Below, piece after piece: positions 51,959-60,817 of a stretch of DNA of 60,853 nucleotides. How positions within the stretch are numbered: position 1 is the first letter of the stretch; the number at the start of each line of letters is the position of its first letter. The stretch is taken from positions 10-60,862 of the forward strand of contig NZ_MQTZ01000011.1 of the NCBI RefSeq assembly GCF_001939115.1. The letters are read 5' to 3'. Both the position numbers and the translations under genes were made by a program. A model generated the notes under the pieces. That model was not told where the DNA came from. It was given only the letters and a program-made list of their open reading frames with translations, and did no database searches. This DNA comes from Leptolyngbya sp. 'hensonii' (GTDB lineage Bacteria; Cyanobacteriota; Cyanobacteriia; GCF-001939115).

Positions 51959-54900
51959 ATGTTTACAGGTGTTTCAGAGGTGAGACAGGCTATTAACCGC
52001 AACGTACTGATTGTCTCTCCCGATACACCTCTGATCCAGGTGATTGAACGGATGAATCAGCGGCGATCCCTGATGCCAGACGAACCTCAGTCCTGGGCGA
52101 TCGCGGATAGCCCCAAAGCAGAAAGCTGCAGCCAGCCTACCTGTGCCTTGGTGATGGCATCGGCCCAGTTGTTGGGCATTTTCACCAGTCAGGATGTTAT
52201 TCAGGCCGTGGCCTCAAAATGTAACCTGGAGGAAACGACCATTTCAGAGGTGATGACTACTCCGGTTGTGACCTTGAACTTGGCAGATTTGAAAGATGCC
52301 TCGGTAGTGCTGGATGTGATGCGCCAGTACCAGATTCACCATTTGCCGATTCTGGATGAGCAACAGCAACTGCTGGGAGTCGCCACGTGCAAGAGTTTGT
52401 TATGTGCAGGCCAAAACCCGGAAGTTGCCTTGCACAGGAGTGAGGAACAGCGTTCTCTGGCCCTGGATATGACCCAACTGGGGACGTGGGACTGGGATAT
52501 GACGACAGGGAGCTTAACCTGGACGGACAACACATTTCGATTATTAGGTTTTGCGCCTGGAGAAGTGGAGCCCACACAAGCCGTTTGGCGTCAGCGGGTC
52601 CACCCTGAGGATCTGGAGGGCATTGAGCAGGCGACCCTGCGTGATCTGGAGGGCCAGGGTCCGGGTGAGGTTGAATACCGGGTAGTGCATCCTGATGGCA
52701 GTCTGCACTGGCTGCTGGGCAAGGGCAAGGTGGTCCATGATCAGGATGGAAAGCCAGTGCGGATGCTGGGCATCCTGATGGACATCAGCGATCGCAAAGC
52801 GGCTAAAGAGCAGTTGCGGCAACAACAACAATTGACGGAGCAGATTGCGGAGTCTACGGCAGCCATCCTTTACATCTATGACCTGGTGGAAAACTGCAAT
52901 GTGTATGCCAATTCCCAGATTGAGGCAGTTTTAGGATATTCCCCGGATGAGGTTCAGGCTCTGGGCAATGCCCTCTTTTCGACCCTGGTGCATCCAGAGG
53001 ATTTTCCCACCCAAATGGTTAATTATCAGCACTGTTTCACCCTGAAAGATGGGGAAATTCTGGAGACAGCCTACCGGATGCGGCACAAGCAGGGGGAGTA
53101 TCGCTGGCTGCTCAGTCGCGATCGCGTCCTCAACCGCATGCCAGACGGTTCTCCCCGGCAAATTCTGGGCGTCGCTACAGACATCACCCTCCTGAAAGAA
53201 ACCCAGGTGGCTCTGCAACACCAGGCCGATCGGGAACGGCTGATGGCGACGATCTCTCAGCGGATTCGCCAGTCATTAAATCTGGAAATGATTCTGGCAA
53301 CTACAGTGGGGGAGGTGCGGCAACTACTCCGAACCGATCGGGTGATTCTCTACCGGTTTGATCCGGATTGGAGTGGGATTGTGGTGGCTGAATCGGTGGC
53401 AGAAGCCTGGTCCCCGATCCTGAACTTGAAGATTACCGATACCTACTTTGTCGCAACCCAAGGCCAGAGCTATCAGCAGGGCACCATCAGGGCGATCGAT
53501 GATGTTCAGGTCGCTGGGTTGGACCCCTGCCATCTGGCGCTGATGGAACAGCTTCAGGTGCGAGCGAAACTGATTGTGCCTGTGCTGCAGGGACGCTGTG
53601 TCTGGGGATTGCTCATCGCCCATCATTGTGCCGCTCCCCGCTCTTGGCATCCCTGGGAGAAGGAACTCCTGTCCCAACTGGCGACCCAGGTGGGGATTGC
53701 GATTCAACAGGCCAATCTCTATCGTCAGGCCCAGCATGAACTGGCCGAGCGCAGACAGACAGAACAGGCACTACGCTTATCCCAGGCCCGGTTCGCTGGG
53801 ATTCTGGATGTGGCTAGTGATGCCATTATTTCCATCGATAGCAACCAGCGTGTGACCCTATATAACCAAGGGGCCGAAAAGATGTTTGGCTATCCGGCCG
53901 ATGAGGTGCTGGGCCAACCTCTTGATCTGTTGCTCCCCAAACGTTTTGTGGGCATGCACCGCCACCATGTCAGAGACTTTGCCCAGGGAGAGGCTCCGGC
54001 CCGCCGGATGGGAGAACGCCAGGAAATCTTTGCTCGTCGTCAGGATGGGCGTGAATTCCCCGCTGAGGCTTCCATTTCCAGGTTAACCCTGGCCGGAGAA
54101 ACGATTCTGACGGTGATTCTGCGGGATGTCAGCGATCGCAAGCGGGCTGAAGCGAAACTCCGCGAACAACAGGCCCAACTGGACCTGGTGGTACAGGCGT
54201 CAAATGTGGGGTTCTATCTTTCCGATCTGCAAACAAATACGTCCTATGTGTCGCCTGCTTACAAGGCCCAGCTTGGTTATGCTGCTGAAGAAGAATCGGG
54301 TAGCCCTGCCGATTGGAATAGCCGTCTCCATCCCGAAGATCGAGACCGGGCGATCGCAGCCTACCAGGCGTTTAAGCGCCAGGAGGCCCCTTACAACATT
54401 GACTTTCGCTTGCGCCACCGGGATGGCAGTTATCGCTGGATTTATAGCAATGCCCAACTCATTCTGGATGATAGAGGATGTCCAGCCAAAATTGTGGGGA
54501 CCCACATCGACATCACCGATCGCAAACAGGCTGAAGCAGCCCTACAACAATTAAACCGGGATCTGGAGTGGCGGGTCCAGGAGCGGACTGAAGCCCTGCA
54601 GCAACAGGCAGACCAGGAACAATTACTCCGATTTGTGGCCCAGCGGATTCACCAATCCCTCGATTTAGAGGAAATTTTGATCACGGTGTTGACAGAAATC
54701 CGCCATACCCTGCAAGCCGATCGAGTCGCTATCTACCGGTTTAACCCCGATTGGAGCGGTACTTTTGTGGCGGAATCGGTCGATACAAATTGGGTTCCCT
54801 TAGTCGGACCTGATATCCAGACGGTTTGGCCAGATACCTACCTGCAAGAAACCCAGGGAGGGCGCTACCGGCAGGGTGAAACTTTTGCAGTCAACGACAT

Positions 54901-56251
54901 CTATACCATTGGGCATAGCCCTTGTCATGTGGACATTTTGGAGCAATTCCAGATCAGGGCCTATGCGATCGCGCCGATTCTGGTGCAGGACCACCTCTGG
55001 GGTCTGCTGGCTGCCTATCACAATGCAGCTCCGCACCAGTGGCAGGCTCGGGAAATCAACCTGTTGTTGCAGATTAGCCTCCAGACCGAGATCGCGATTC
55101 AGCAATCCGACCTGTTTCAGCAGGTGCAAATGAATTTGGCCGTCAAAGGGCTCCTGGTGGAGATTGCGGAGACTATCAACCGGTCTGTCCAGTTTGACCA
55201 GGCCCTGACAGATATCCTGAAGCGCATCCAACAATTCCTTGGCTGCGATCGGGCGATCGTCTACCGTTTGCTCCCGGATGGCAGGGGTGTGATTGAGGAA
55301 GAGGCGACATCGCAGCCAGAACTTTCCCTATTGGGGCAAATCATTGACGACCCCTGCCTTAGCCGGGACTATGCAAAACGCTACGAGCAGGGCTACATCA
55401 CGCTGCTCAACGATCGAGAAACGGCTGACTTGCGGCCCTGTTACCTTGAATTCCTGGCTCAACTCCAGATTCGGGCCAATCTGGTTGTCCCGATTTTGCA
55501 GGCGGAAACCCTCTGGGGCTTACTGATCCTGCATCAATGTCATACCCCTCGCCAGTGGCAATTGTTTGAGATTGATCTGCTGCAGCAGGTCGGGTTGCAA
55601 ATTGGGATTGCCGGTCAGAAGGCTGCCCTTTATGCTCAGTTAGAGAACGAACTCCACCAAAAAGAGGTCCTGATTCGGGAGGTGCATCATCGGGTAAAAA
55701 ACAATCTGCAGGTGATCTCCAGCTTGCTCTATCTGCAATCAGCCACGATCGAGAACCCGGATATCTTGCAACCTTTTATTGAGAGTCAGCATCGGATTGA
55801 TATCATGGCCATGATCCATGAACGGCTCTATCGGTCTGGTAACCTGGCGAACCTCAACTTTGCCAGTTATGTCCGTGATCTGGTGGAAGATGTGTTTCAG
55901 TCCTATCTCCCGATTGGGGCTAGCATTACCTGGCAGGTAAAAGTTGCTGAGCTAGAGTTGGAGCTGGATATCGCCATTCCCTGTGGGTTGATTATTAATG
56001 AATTAGTGTCCAATGCGATTAAATATGCCTTCCCCAACCGCCGCTCTGGTGAGATTGGTATTATCTTTGATTACGAAAATTCTCAGTATCAATTGATCAT
56101 TAGAGACAATGGAATTGGGTTTCCTCAGTTGGTGGACTTTCGCAATACAGAGTCTCTGGGGATGCAGGTGGTCTGTGCATTAACTCGACAACTGGGGGGA
56201 AGTATAGAATTGAATCGGGATGGCGGTACCGCCTTTGCGATCACGTTTTAA
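51959..56251 (+). CDS. CBS-PAS-PAS-GAF-PAS-PAS-GAF-GAF histidine kinase with cyanobacteriochrome-type GAF domains
   Basis: A protein of 1430 residues from the ATG at 51959; the open frame further upstream is the complement of the secreted gene. Order: CBS pair (about 10-150), PAS (160-280), PAS (290-410), GAF1 (430-590), PAS (610-730), PAS (740-857), GAF2 (890-1050), GAF3 (1064-1227), HisKA_2 with EVHHRVKNNLQ (His1243/1244) and HATPase (NELVSNAIKYAF, DNGIGF). Each GAF has the bilin-type Cys: Cys524 (GLDPCHL), Cys989 (GHSPCHVD) and Cys1161 (LRPCYLEF). GAF2 has WPDTYLQETQGGRYRQGE as in red/green cyanobacteriochromes; GAF3 has a second Cys (Cys1133, DDPCL) as in DXCF types. There is no membrane span, so it is cytoplasmic. 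Confidence 0.85.
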   Translation: MFTGVSEVRQAINRNVLIVSPDTPLIQVIERMNQRRSLMPDEPQSWAIADSPKAESCSQPTCALVMASAQLLGIFTSQDVIQAVASKCNLEETTISEVMTTPVVTLNLADLKDASVVLDVMRQYQIHHLPILDEQQQLLGVATCKSLLCAGQNPEVALHRSEEQRSLALDMTQLGTWDWDMTTGSLTWTDNTFRLLGFAPGEVEPTQAVWRQRVHPEDLEGIEQATLRDLEGQGPGEVEYRVVHPDGSLHWLLGKGKVVHDQDGKPVRMLGILMDISDRKAAKEQLRQQQQLTEQIAESTAAILYIYDLVENCNVYANSQIEAVLGYSPDEVQALGNALFSTLVHPEDFPTQMVNYQHCFTLKDGEILETAYRMRHKQGEYRWLLSRDRVLNRMPDGSPRQILGVATDITLLKETQVALQHQADRERLMATISQRIRQSLNLEMILATTVGEVRQLLRTDRVILYRFDPDWSGIVVAESVAEAWSPILNLKITDTYFVATQGQSYQQGTIRAIDDVQVAGLDPCHLALMEQLQVRAKLIVPVLQGRCVWGLLIAHHCAAPRSWHPWEKELLSQLATQVGIAIQQANLYRQAQHELAERRQTEQALRLSQARFAGILDVASDAIISIDSNQRVTLYNQGAEKMFGYPADEVLGQPLDLLLPKRFVGMHRHHVRDFAQGEAPARRMGERQEIFARRQDGREFPAEASISRLTLAGETILTVILRDVSDRKRAEAKLREQQAQLDLVVQASNVGFYLSDLQTNTSYVSPAYKAQLGYAAEEESGSPADWNSRLHPEDRDRAIAAYQAFKRQEAPYNIDFRLRHRDGSYRWIYSNAQLILDDRGCPAKIVGTHIDITDRKQAEAALQQLNRDLEWRVQERTEALQQQADQEQLLRFVAQRIHQSLDLEEILITVLTEIRHTLQADRVAIYRFNPDWSGTFVAESVDTNWVPLVGPDIQTVWPDTYLQETQGGRYRQGETFAVNDIYTIGHSPCHVDILEQFQIRAYAIAPILVQDHLWGLLAAYHNAAPHQWQAREINLLLQISLQTEIAIQQSDLFQQVQMNLAVKGLLVEIAETINRSVQFDQALTDILKRIQQFLGCDRAIVYRLLPDGRGVIEEEATSQPELSLLGQIIDDPCLSRDYAKRYEQGYITLLNDRETADLRPCYLEFLAQLQIRANLVVPILQAETLWGLLILHQCHTPRQWQLFEIDLLQQVGLQIGIAGQKAALYAQLENELHQKEVLIREVHHRVKNNLQVISSLLYLQSATIENPDILQPFIESQHRIDIMAMIHERLYRSGNLANLNFASYVRDLVEDVFQSYLPIGASITWQVKVAELELELDIAIPCGLIINELVSNAIKYAFPNRRSGEIGIIFDYENSQYQLIIRDNGIGFPQLVDFRNTESLGMQVVCALTRQLGGSIELNRDGGTAFAITF

Positions 56252-56290: not shown

Positions 56291-57445
56291 ATGAGTTCCA
56301 GCATCTTGATTGTAGAAGATGAGCAGCTTGTTGCACTCGACATTCAACGACGGTTAACTCAGTTGGGGCATCAGGTGGTTGCGATCACCGATCGGGGCGA
56401 AGCGGCTTTAGAAGCTGTTGCTCAATTTCATCCTGATCTAGTTTTGATGGATATTCATCTGCATGGGCATATGGATGGGATAGCTGCCGCCGCCCAGATC
56501 CGAGAACAATATCACCTTCCGGTTATCTTTCTCACGGCCCATGCTGATACAGCAACGGTCACTCAAGCGAAGGAAACTCAGCCCTTCGGATATTTAATCA
56601 AACCGGTGCAAACCAAGCATCTCAGTACGGCGATTGAAATTGCCCTGACGCGCCATCAGGCTGAAGTTCTGATGCAAAGGGCATTGGAGAAGGAACGAGA
56701 GTGGAGTGAGGCGCTACAGCGGGCTCTGGACAAAGAAAAAGAACTAAATGAGTTGAAATCTCAGTTTGTATCGATCGTTTCCCATGAATTCCGTAATCCC
56801 CTGAGTGTCATCCTGTTTGTTCTAAGTTTGCTGGAGCGTCACGACCAAGAATTTTCACCTGATCAGCAACGGAGTCACATTCGGCGAGCTAAGGCGGCCA
56901 CCCACAATTTAGTCCAATTGATTGAAGATATTCTCACCCTGAGTGAAACAGACGCCGTTCAGTTTCACTATCACCCGGTTCCGATCGATGTGCTCTGGTT
57001 TTGCCAGGAGTTAGTCAGTGAGTTCCAGGTCAATCTGGCGACCAACCACACCATTGTCTTGGAAGTTTGTAACTGTTCGGAAACGGATGTCCTGTTTTAT
57101 GACCTGGATGTGAAGCTACTCCGCCATATCCTGACTAATCTGCTGTCCAATGCCATCAAGTACTCTCCAGAGGGGGGCGAAATTCGATTCTCGTTGTCCT
57201 GTAAGCCGGATGCCGTCATCTTCCAAATTCAAGATCAGGGGATTGGGATTTCCTCCGAAGACCAGACTCATTTATTTGAGCCCTTTTGCCGAGGGTCTAA
57301 TGTACGGAAGATTTCTGGGACGGGTCTGGGTTTATTTATTGTGCAAAAGTGTGTTGCAGCCCATGGTGGGACGATTGCCGTCCACAGCGAAGTTGGGGTG
57401 GGCACAACTTTTACCGTGACTCTGGTGGGTCCAGTGCAATCATGA
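56291..57445 (+). CDS. REC-histidine kinase, likely partner of the light-sensor kinase
   Basis: A protein of 384 residues. Receiver domain (about 5-120) with ILIVEDEQLV, LVLMDIHLHG (phospho-Asp), FLTAHAD and YLIKPV; short coiled linker; HisKA with FVSIVSHEFRNPLSV; HATPase_c with NLLSNAIKYSP, QDQGIGI and GTGLGLFIV. All catalytic boxes are intact. It begins 39 bases after the CBS/PAS/GAF kinase, so the two form an operon, and its receiver is the natural first target of that kinase. No DNA-binding protein follows, so the final output is elsewhere. Confidence 0.92.
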   Translation: MSSSILIVEDEQLVALDIQRRLTQLGHQVVAITDRGEAALEAVAQFHPDLVLMDIHLHGHMDGIAAAAQIREQYHLPVIFLTAHADTATVTQAKETQPFGYLIKPVQTKHLSTAIEIALTRHQAEVLMQRALEKEREWSEALQRALDKEKELNELKSQFVSIVSHEFRNPLSVILFVLSLLERHDQEFSPDQQRSHIRRAKAATHNLVQLIEDILTLSETDAVQFHYHPVPIDVLWFCQELVSEFQVNLATNHTIVLEVCNCSETDVLFYDLDVKLLRHILTNLLSNAIKYSPEGGEIRFSLSCKPDAVIFQIQDQGIGISSEDQTHLFEPFCRGSNVRKISGTGLGLFIVQKCVAAHGGTIAVHSEVGVGTTFTVTLVGPVQS

Positions 57446-59901: not shown

Positions 59902-60028
59902 TTCGGCGATCGATTGTGATGATCCTGCGATCGAGGGGGCTGATCGGATGACAACCGATCGTAGTCCATATAGTATTTGATTGGACGAATGTGCCTTTTG
60001 TTACCTTGCTAAAGGGAAAGGAAAAAGC

Positions 60029-60817
60029 ATGATGAATCGAATTGTACTGTCTTTGTCGATCTTTTTTGGTCTGACCCTCACAGCCTCTGCCCTGCCACCA
60101 AACTACACCCTGTGGCTGAAGGCCAACTCGACCAAATGTCTTCAGAAAATGAATCCAAGCTGGGAGAATGGTAATCCGATTCATCTGTGGGACTGTGGTG
60201 TCGAACGCAACAATGAATCCTGGGTGTATGACGTGAAAACGGGGCAAATTCGCGCCAAGGCCAATCCTGCGAAGTGTCTGCAGAAAAAGGAACCGGGTTG
60301 GGAGAATGGCAATCCGATTCATCTATGGGATTGTGGCGTCGATCGGGATAACGAATCCTGGGTATATGACGTGAAAACGGGGCAGATTCGCGCCAAGGCC
60401 AATCCAAGTAAGTGTCTGCAGAAGAAGGAACCCGGCTGGGAGAATGGCAATCCGATTCATCTGTGGGATTGTGGCGTCGATCGGGATAACGAATCCTGGC
60501 AAAACACCATTTTTGCAGGAGCCAAAGCTGAGGTGGGGGGAACTTATCAGAATAGCATCACGGTTCTGAATCGGGCCAAGAACTATGCCCGCCAGGCAGC
60601 AGAAAAACGCAATGGGGGCTTACAGAACTACCGGGCTGAGGATAAGATGCATGGTCCTGCCGATCAAACAGGCGTGGTGGAAAACGACGATGGCTCAGTC
60701 ACGTTTACGTTTTATGGGGGCAAACCGACGGCTGAACCTACCATTGAAAGTGTGGTGACGGTGGAAATCAACGGTTGGCAAACTCGGATTGATTATAACG
60801 GACCAATTCGTCGCTAA
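60029..60817 (+). CDS. Secreted protein with a three-repeat ricin-type trefoil and an unknown C-terminal domain
   Basis: A protein of 262 residues from the ATG at 60029, preceded by AAGGGAAAGGAAA. There is a signal peptide (about 1-21), then three 46-residue units, each with KCLQK, GNPIHLWDCG and NESW, the pattern of ricin B-type beta-trefoils (QxW class). Units 2 and 3 differ at one of 35 shared residues; unit 1 differs from unit 2 at seven of 46. The last 105 residues (YQNSITVLNRAKNYARQA to TVEINGWQTRIDYNGPI) form a separate domain that I do not recognise. A sugar-binding secreted protein is likely; the GH116 gene is 127 bases upstream. Confidence 0.8.
   Translation: MMNRIVLSLSIFFGLTLTASALPPNYTLWLKANSTKCLQKMNPSWENGNPIHLWDCGVERNNESWVYDVKTGQIRAKANPAKCLQKKEPGWENGNPIHLWDCGVDRDNESWVYDVKTGQIRAKANPSKCLQKKEPGWENGNPIHLWDCGVDRDNESWQNTIFAGAKAEVGGTYQNSITVLNRAKNYARQAAEKRNGGLQNYRAEDKMHGPADQTGVVENDDGSVTFTFYGGKPTAEPTIESVVTVEINGWQTRIDYNGPIRR
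60119..60499 (+). repeat. Tandem 138-bp coding repeat, about 2.8 copies
   Basis: Units start at 60119, 60257 and 60395, each beginning AAGGCCAA. The second and third are nearly identical in DNA, not only in protein, which points to recent duplication or gene conversion. Confidence 0.9.

Follow-up and report, generated by a model that had tools for sequence, protein, structure and literature searches.

Domain architecture of the kinase

What does a single histidine kinase sense when three bilin-type GAF domains, four PAS domains and a CBS pair precede its catalytic core, and to which protein does it report? The question is raised by an open reading frame at positions 51959-56251 (+ strand) of a 60,853-nucleotide stretch of Leptolyngbya sp. 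'hensonii' DNA (contig NZ_MQTZ01000011.1; the window), which encodes a multi-sensor HisKA_2 kinase with the order CBS-CBS-PAS-PAS-GAF1-PAS-PAS-GAF2-GAF3-HisKA_2-HATPase_c. Our analysis indicates that this protein is probably a multi-colour cyanobacteriochrome (CBCR) histidine kinase. The frame runs for 1430 residues with zero internal stops, and its ATG start agrees with that of the orthologous kinase in genome G137 (MTTGVPTLQQAIDRH versus MFTGVSEVRQAINRN; G and L numbers are our handles for genomes and loci). Pfam recognizes three GAF stretches (5e-69), four PAS domains, two CBS domains (3.5e-13), HisKA_2 (5e-26) and HATPase_c. The highest 19-residue Kyte-Doolittle mean is 1.56, with no membrane helix. 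An earlier note on this DNA, made from the sequence alone, had proposed one soluble kinase with three CBCR-type GAF domains of different colour classes, and Pfam, the phylogeny and the hydropathy maximum of 1.56 agree with that proposal. All three GAF domains group with CBCRs in the IQ-TREE phylogeny, and their best database matches are CBCRs as well.

Three intact bilin pockets

In a profile alignment with the solved CBCRs PPHK, NpR6012g4, AnPixJg2, RcaE and miRFP670nano, Cys524 of GAF1 (LDPCHL; codon 53528-53530), Cys989 of GAF2 (HSPCHV; 54923-54925) and Cys1161 of GAF3 (LRPCYL; 55439-55441) fall in the bilin-Cys column, while the DXCF column is taken by Cys1133 of GAF3 (DDPCLS; 55355-55357) and the Trp column of the WXDXXL motif by Trp957-Pro-Asp959 of GAF2. 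All four cysteines stand at exactly the residue numbers that the earlier note had given. The three bilin cysteines are more than a matter of chance because, across the genome's 106 GAF domains, the canonical Cys is nearly confined to CBCR-scoring domains: below about 100 bits against a CBCR profile it almost never occurs (1 of the GAFs listed), and above 150 bits nearly all have it. Because the three GAFs of the kinase itself were among the domains used to build this profile, their own scores are favoured. At the 22 columns conserved in at least 85% of bilin-type rows, GAF1 deviates at two positions and GAF2 and GAF3 at one each, the median being one; judged by these columns, no sign of decay is seen in any of the three pockets. 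With two PcyA proteins in the genome, next to PebA and PebB, phycocyanobilin should be made. We propose a model in which each GAF would hold phycocyanobilin covalently at its canonical Cys. Of the proteins whose CBCR-like GAFs we typed in this genome, the kinase alone was seen to have two or more canonical-Cys domains of clear CBCR class.

Three CBCR lineages in one protein

GAF2 (54596-55144) is the most readily assigned. It carries Trp957-Pro-Asp959-Thr-Tyr-Leu, an instance of the WXDXXL motif that defines XRG (red/green-type) CBCRs (PMC11284453), together with QETQGGRY, and retains the beta2 Phe and the helix Phe of red/green types. Its best solved match is the red/green NpR6012g4 (3e-67), and it lies inside a 22-member XRG clade, supported at 100/100, that also holds NpR6012g4, AnPixJg2 and Slr1393g3, in line with the red/green class previously suggested for it. 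GAF2 differs from these three in its host protein, in having Pro where they have Glu after the Trp, and in its membership of a separate XRG subclade with domains of G137, G006, G033, G023, G141 and G281. A red/green photocycle is expected from these features, with GAF2 switching between red- and green-absorbing states. Elsewhere, an XRG-like domain (L085; G000:C29:1836-2351) has a long Cys-bearing insertion (VQHDRCIVKTWQ...) and is likely an insert-Cys CBCR of the violet/UV type.

GAF3 (55142-55663) is of the dual-Cys type that had been claimed for it: Asp1131-Pro-Cys1133 aligns with the DXCF motif and Cys1161 with the bilin Cys. We call it DXCF-like because Leu1134 replaces the motif Phe after the second Cys, yet it nests with DPCF and DQCF domains, those of G014 and G134, at 100/97. 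These two domains likewise sit directly before a HisKA_2 core and have a gene downstream for a receiver (REC)-containing kinase, the REC-kinase. Several further natural domains of this genome also have Leu here, with DPCL in L071 and L132. By sequence, the solved structure nearest to GAF3 is PPHK (6e-36), and the structural model of GAF3 fits AnPixJg2 with Z 25.4 and the blue state of TePixJ with Z 22.1. GAF3 shares with TePixJ and other DXCF CBCRs the Asp-Xaa-Cys and bilin-Cys columns but differs from TePixJ in the Leu for the motif Phe and in a Tyr for the His after the bilin Cys, and lies outside the TePixJ subclade. The best prediction from these residues is a dual-Cys photocycle in which Cys1133 would form a light-labile second thioether to bilin C10, giving a dark state that absorbs at short wavelength, in the violet/blue. 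A possible dual-Cys variant of another branch was seen in G130, where two HisKA_2 kinases (L193 and L196) carry a GAF with DACL that belongs to the RcaE-like green/red branch.

GAF1 (53213-53758) is a single-Cys domain of the DXYF type, and the alignment bears out the reading of DTYF (494-497) without the Trp. Its best PDB sequence match is the GAF of PPHK (2e-58; 50% identity, Z 25), followed by miRFP670nano, which was engineered from NpR3784 (PMC6336887; PMC11480761). In the phylogeny it forms a DXYF clade with the G137 domain and related domains of G098, G141 and G006 (100/81), while its grouping with PPHK and miRFP670nano has a support of only 88/66. Domains of the NpR3784 type carry a DXXF motif without the Trp as a group feature (PMC5578081) and are red/green domains tuned through alternative Phe residues (PMC5578081; PMC5240096). 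GAF1 has this motif; when we looked in the alignment for the alternative beta1 Phe with which that group tunes its photoproduct, we found Ile instead. With Ile at beta1, Val at beta2 and Leu in the helix, GAF1 keeps none of the three colour-tuning Phe residues, and because all of them are absent we file it, on these residues, only as a relative of the NpR3784 group. It would probably have a red-absorbing dark state, with an uncertain photoproduct. A far-red identity for GAF1 was dropped, as structure titles identify PDB 6OAP as PPHK and 6UV8 as the far-red sensor Anacy_2551g3 (PMC11480761).

The loss of the tuning Phe residues, replaced by Ile, Val and Leu at beta1, beta2 and the helix, could also mean that GAF1 is structural or photochemically inert (fluorescent-like) and that only GAF2 and GAF3 are photoactive with bilin. 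Inert red CBCR domains have a precedent in Npf2164g5 (PMC5578081), and the Cys of GAF1 is missing in the G293 relative. We consider this reading unlikely: GAF1 retains Cys524, His525 and Asp494 and, of the 22 positions, all but two, both of them conservatively changed; moreover, the Ile/Val/Leu pattern together with the Cys recurs in three other proteins (L006 and L061 of the same genome, and G137), which argues for a maintained GAF1 type. It is tempting to speculate, tentatively, that GAF1 represents a CBCR sublineage that has been maintained, is of the DXYF type with Ile/Val/Leu in place of each trapped-twist Phe, and is often inherited next to an XRG domain; its photoproduct would be tuned in an undescribed way. 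On the same reading, the kinase may merge three spectrally distinct inputs into a single output to a REC-kinase relay dedicated to it.

A conserved pair with a downstream hybrid kinase

The kinase core (55679-56245) has the HRxxN phospho-acceptor box of HisKA_2 intact around His1244 (HHRVKNN), and the N and G boxes of the ATPase domain (NELVSNAIKY and DNGIGF) are intact as well. In an AlphaFold model of residues 1062-1430 (mean pLDDT 87), the kinase part matches the fold of the EL346 kinase, and a single helix (1202-1262) extends from GAF3 through His1244. In our model of signalling, changes in the GAF and PAS domains would travel via the connecting helices to GAF3 and then via this one continuous helix to His1244.

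The most solid functional clue, absent from the earlier note, is the conserved pairing of this kinase with the next gene on the same strand. Beginning 39 bp downstream, at 56291-57445 (+), this gene encodes a hybrid kinase with the order REC (Asp54)-HisKA (His165)-HATPase_c; of 390 genomes searched with this protein, 63, its own included, have a match with an E-value of 1e-85 or lower. A HisKA_2 kinase lies directly before the REC-kinase on the same strand in 38 of the 40 flanked regions, with the stop codon of the kinase mostly under 50 bp ahead of the REC domain; of the other two regions, one has about 2 kb in between and one has no detected HisKA_2 kinase upstream. The distances among the HisKA_2 domains correlate with those among the REC domains (r = 0.86; 0 of 2000 permutations). 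Because of this adjacency and co-variation, the product of 56291-57445 is the likely phosphotransfer partner. The kinase would phosphorylate, or dephosphorylate, Asp54 of this receiver, and the HisKA-HATPase of the downstream protein may relay the signal onward. In the G134 relative, where about 2 kb separates kinase and REC-kinase, an ...XRG-DXCF-HisKA_2 kinase (L153/L225; G134:C1, about 2131934-2133658) has an in-frame TGA in the XRG domain, giving frames of 732 and 430 residues.

Some observations weigh against the interpretation of the protein as a multi-colour CBCR kinase with this partner. The Leu in place of the motif Phe in GAF3 and the Tyr following its bilin Cys make the second-Cys chemistry less than certain; the G293 relative of GAF1 has Tyr for the bilin Cys, so that related kinases can do without a Cys here; and shared species history accounts for part of the co-variation between kinase and receiver.

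CBS and PAS domains as possible inputs

The CBS pair (residues 1-150; 51959-52408) had been proposed to bind adenylate. If it bound AMP or ATP, it would gate the kinase by energy charge, a reading to which GIFTSQD (residues 73-79) in CBS1 and the Pfam call at 3.5e-13 lend something, but which we hold to be improbable. The GxxTxxD motif is whole only in CBS1, and the degenerate CBS2 reads GVATCKS (140-146), so that one of the two ribose-binding Asp positions (GxxT/SxxD) is lost in the kinase; the G137 ortholog has GVFTAQE and GIVTPLS, and in it and other relatives both CBS domains have E, Q or S in place of the ribose-Asp. Because GxxTxxD is missing from CBS2 and from most relatives' CBS domains, adenylate sensing seems unlikely as a conserved property of the pair, and this part of the earlier note is not upheld.

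Two PAS_3-type domains follow (about residues 161-416; 52439-53206, by Pfam), and two further PAS domains stand between GAF1 and GAF2 (about residues 603-870; 53765-54568), the latter resembling most (48%) a pair carried by a different protein of this genome. The first of this second pair (residues 603-731; 53765-54151) matches mainly heme PAS domains in the PDB, namely those of FixL and DosP, and its His667 falls on the FixL heme His200. That the GAF array is mainly a scaffold for dimerisation and relay, with the CBS pair and the PAS domains, such as a heme PAS centred on His667, as the true inputs and light as a minor one, would fit this resemblance and the frequent absence of any bilin-type GAF from further kinases that have this REC-kinase as their partner, but is very unlikely, as three intact bilin pockets are unexpected if unused, Gln replaces the distal Arg of FixL, and heme use by such PAS domains is only putative.

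Relatives and known systems

The kinase has its closest relative in G137, with CBS-PAS-PAS-GAF1 (73%)-GAF2 (66%)-HisKA_2 (76%) followed by a REC-kinase (78% in REC). Compact relatives of the form CBS-...-DXCF-HisKA_2 with a REC-kinase occur in five regions (G053, G019, G120, G137 and G024). The kinase holds both of the sensor sets that occur apart elsewhere, CBS-PAS-PAS-DXYF-XRG-HisKA_2 and DXCF-HisKA_2, plus the two extra PAS domains between GAF1 and GAF2, and we infer that it arose by the joining of such sensor arrays. The GAF1-GAF2 tandem is also present in G141, G281, G293 and G006, with a kinase core, where seen, of another type. A full-length counterpart was not found in the 390 sampled genomes of the class, in each of which the two best candidates were scored, so that absence is not proven; a whole-protein scan of genome contigs returned only unrelated multi-PAS proteins from other phyla, and literature searches on CBS-containing CBCR kinases and on HisKA_2, hybrid kinases and CBS found no CBCR counterpart among the papers listed.

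PPHK of Leptolyngbya sp. JSC-1 (PDB 6OAP/6OAQ/6OB8; Pg 562 nm, PMC11480761) is a dual-sensor histidine kinase, likewise soluble and multi-sensor in combining a CBCR GAF with another input, and its GAF is the best PDB sequence match to both GAF1 and GAF3. However, the solved PPHK chain matches with one CBCR GAF whereas the kinase here has three of different lineages, and PPHK has the beta1 and helix Phe residues, both of which GAF1 lacks. Precedents for several CBCR GAFs of different colour classes in one protein are NpF2164 and NpR1597 of Nostoc punctiforme (PMC5240096; PMC5578081), which we liken to the kinase by their GAF classes and whose colour sets differ from it (near-UV/blue, violet/orange, teal). 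Multi-colour CBCR proteins are thus already known, while the architecture of this kinase is unusual and was not found elsewhere in this search.

Two observations concern the surroundings and the organism. Further along the window, 59981-60817 (+) encodes a predicted 278-residue protein with three near-identical tandem blocks (KANP.KCLQKKEPGWENGNPIHLWDCGV.RDNESWVYDVKTGQIRA), lectin-like repeats of the ricin-B/beta-trefoil style. Moreover, a near-identical RcaE relative (L082; G000:C17:138199-138663) lies about 4 kb from PcyA (L057; G000:C17:133563-134231) and about 14 kb from PebA/PebB (L054/L055; G000:C17:123212-124647), and this proximity makes it probable that the organism produces phycoerythrin and performs chromatic acclimation.

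How several colours are weighed within one kinase is a standing question in cyanobacterial photobiology. The three-sensor kinase, its two-sensor G137 ortholog without GAF3 and the single-sensor CBS-DXCF-HisKA_2 kinases form a natural series with the same partner gene throughout, which would allow the contribution of each colour to be dissected.

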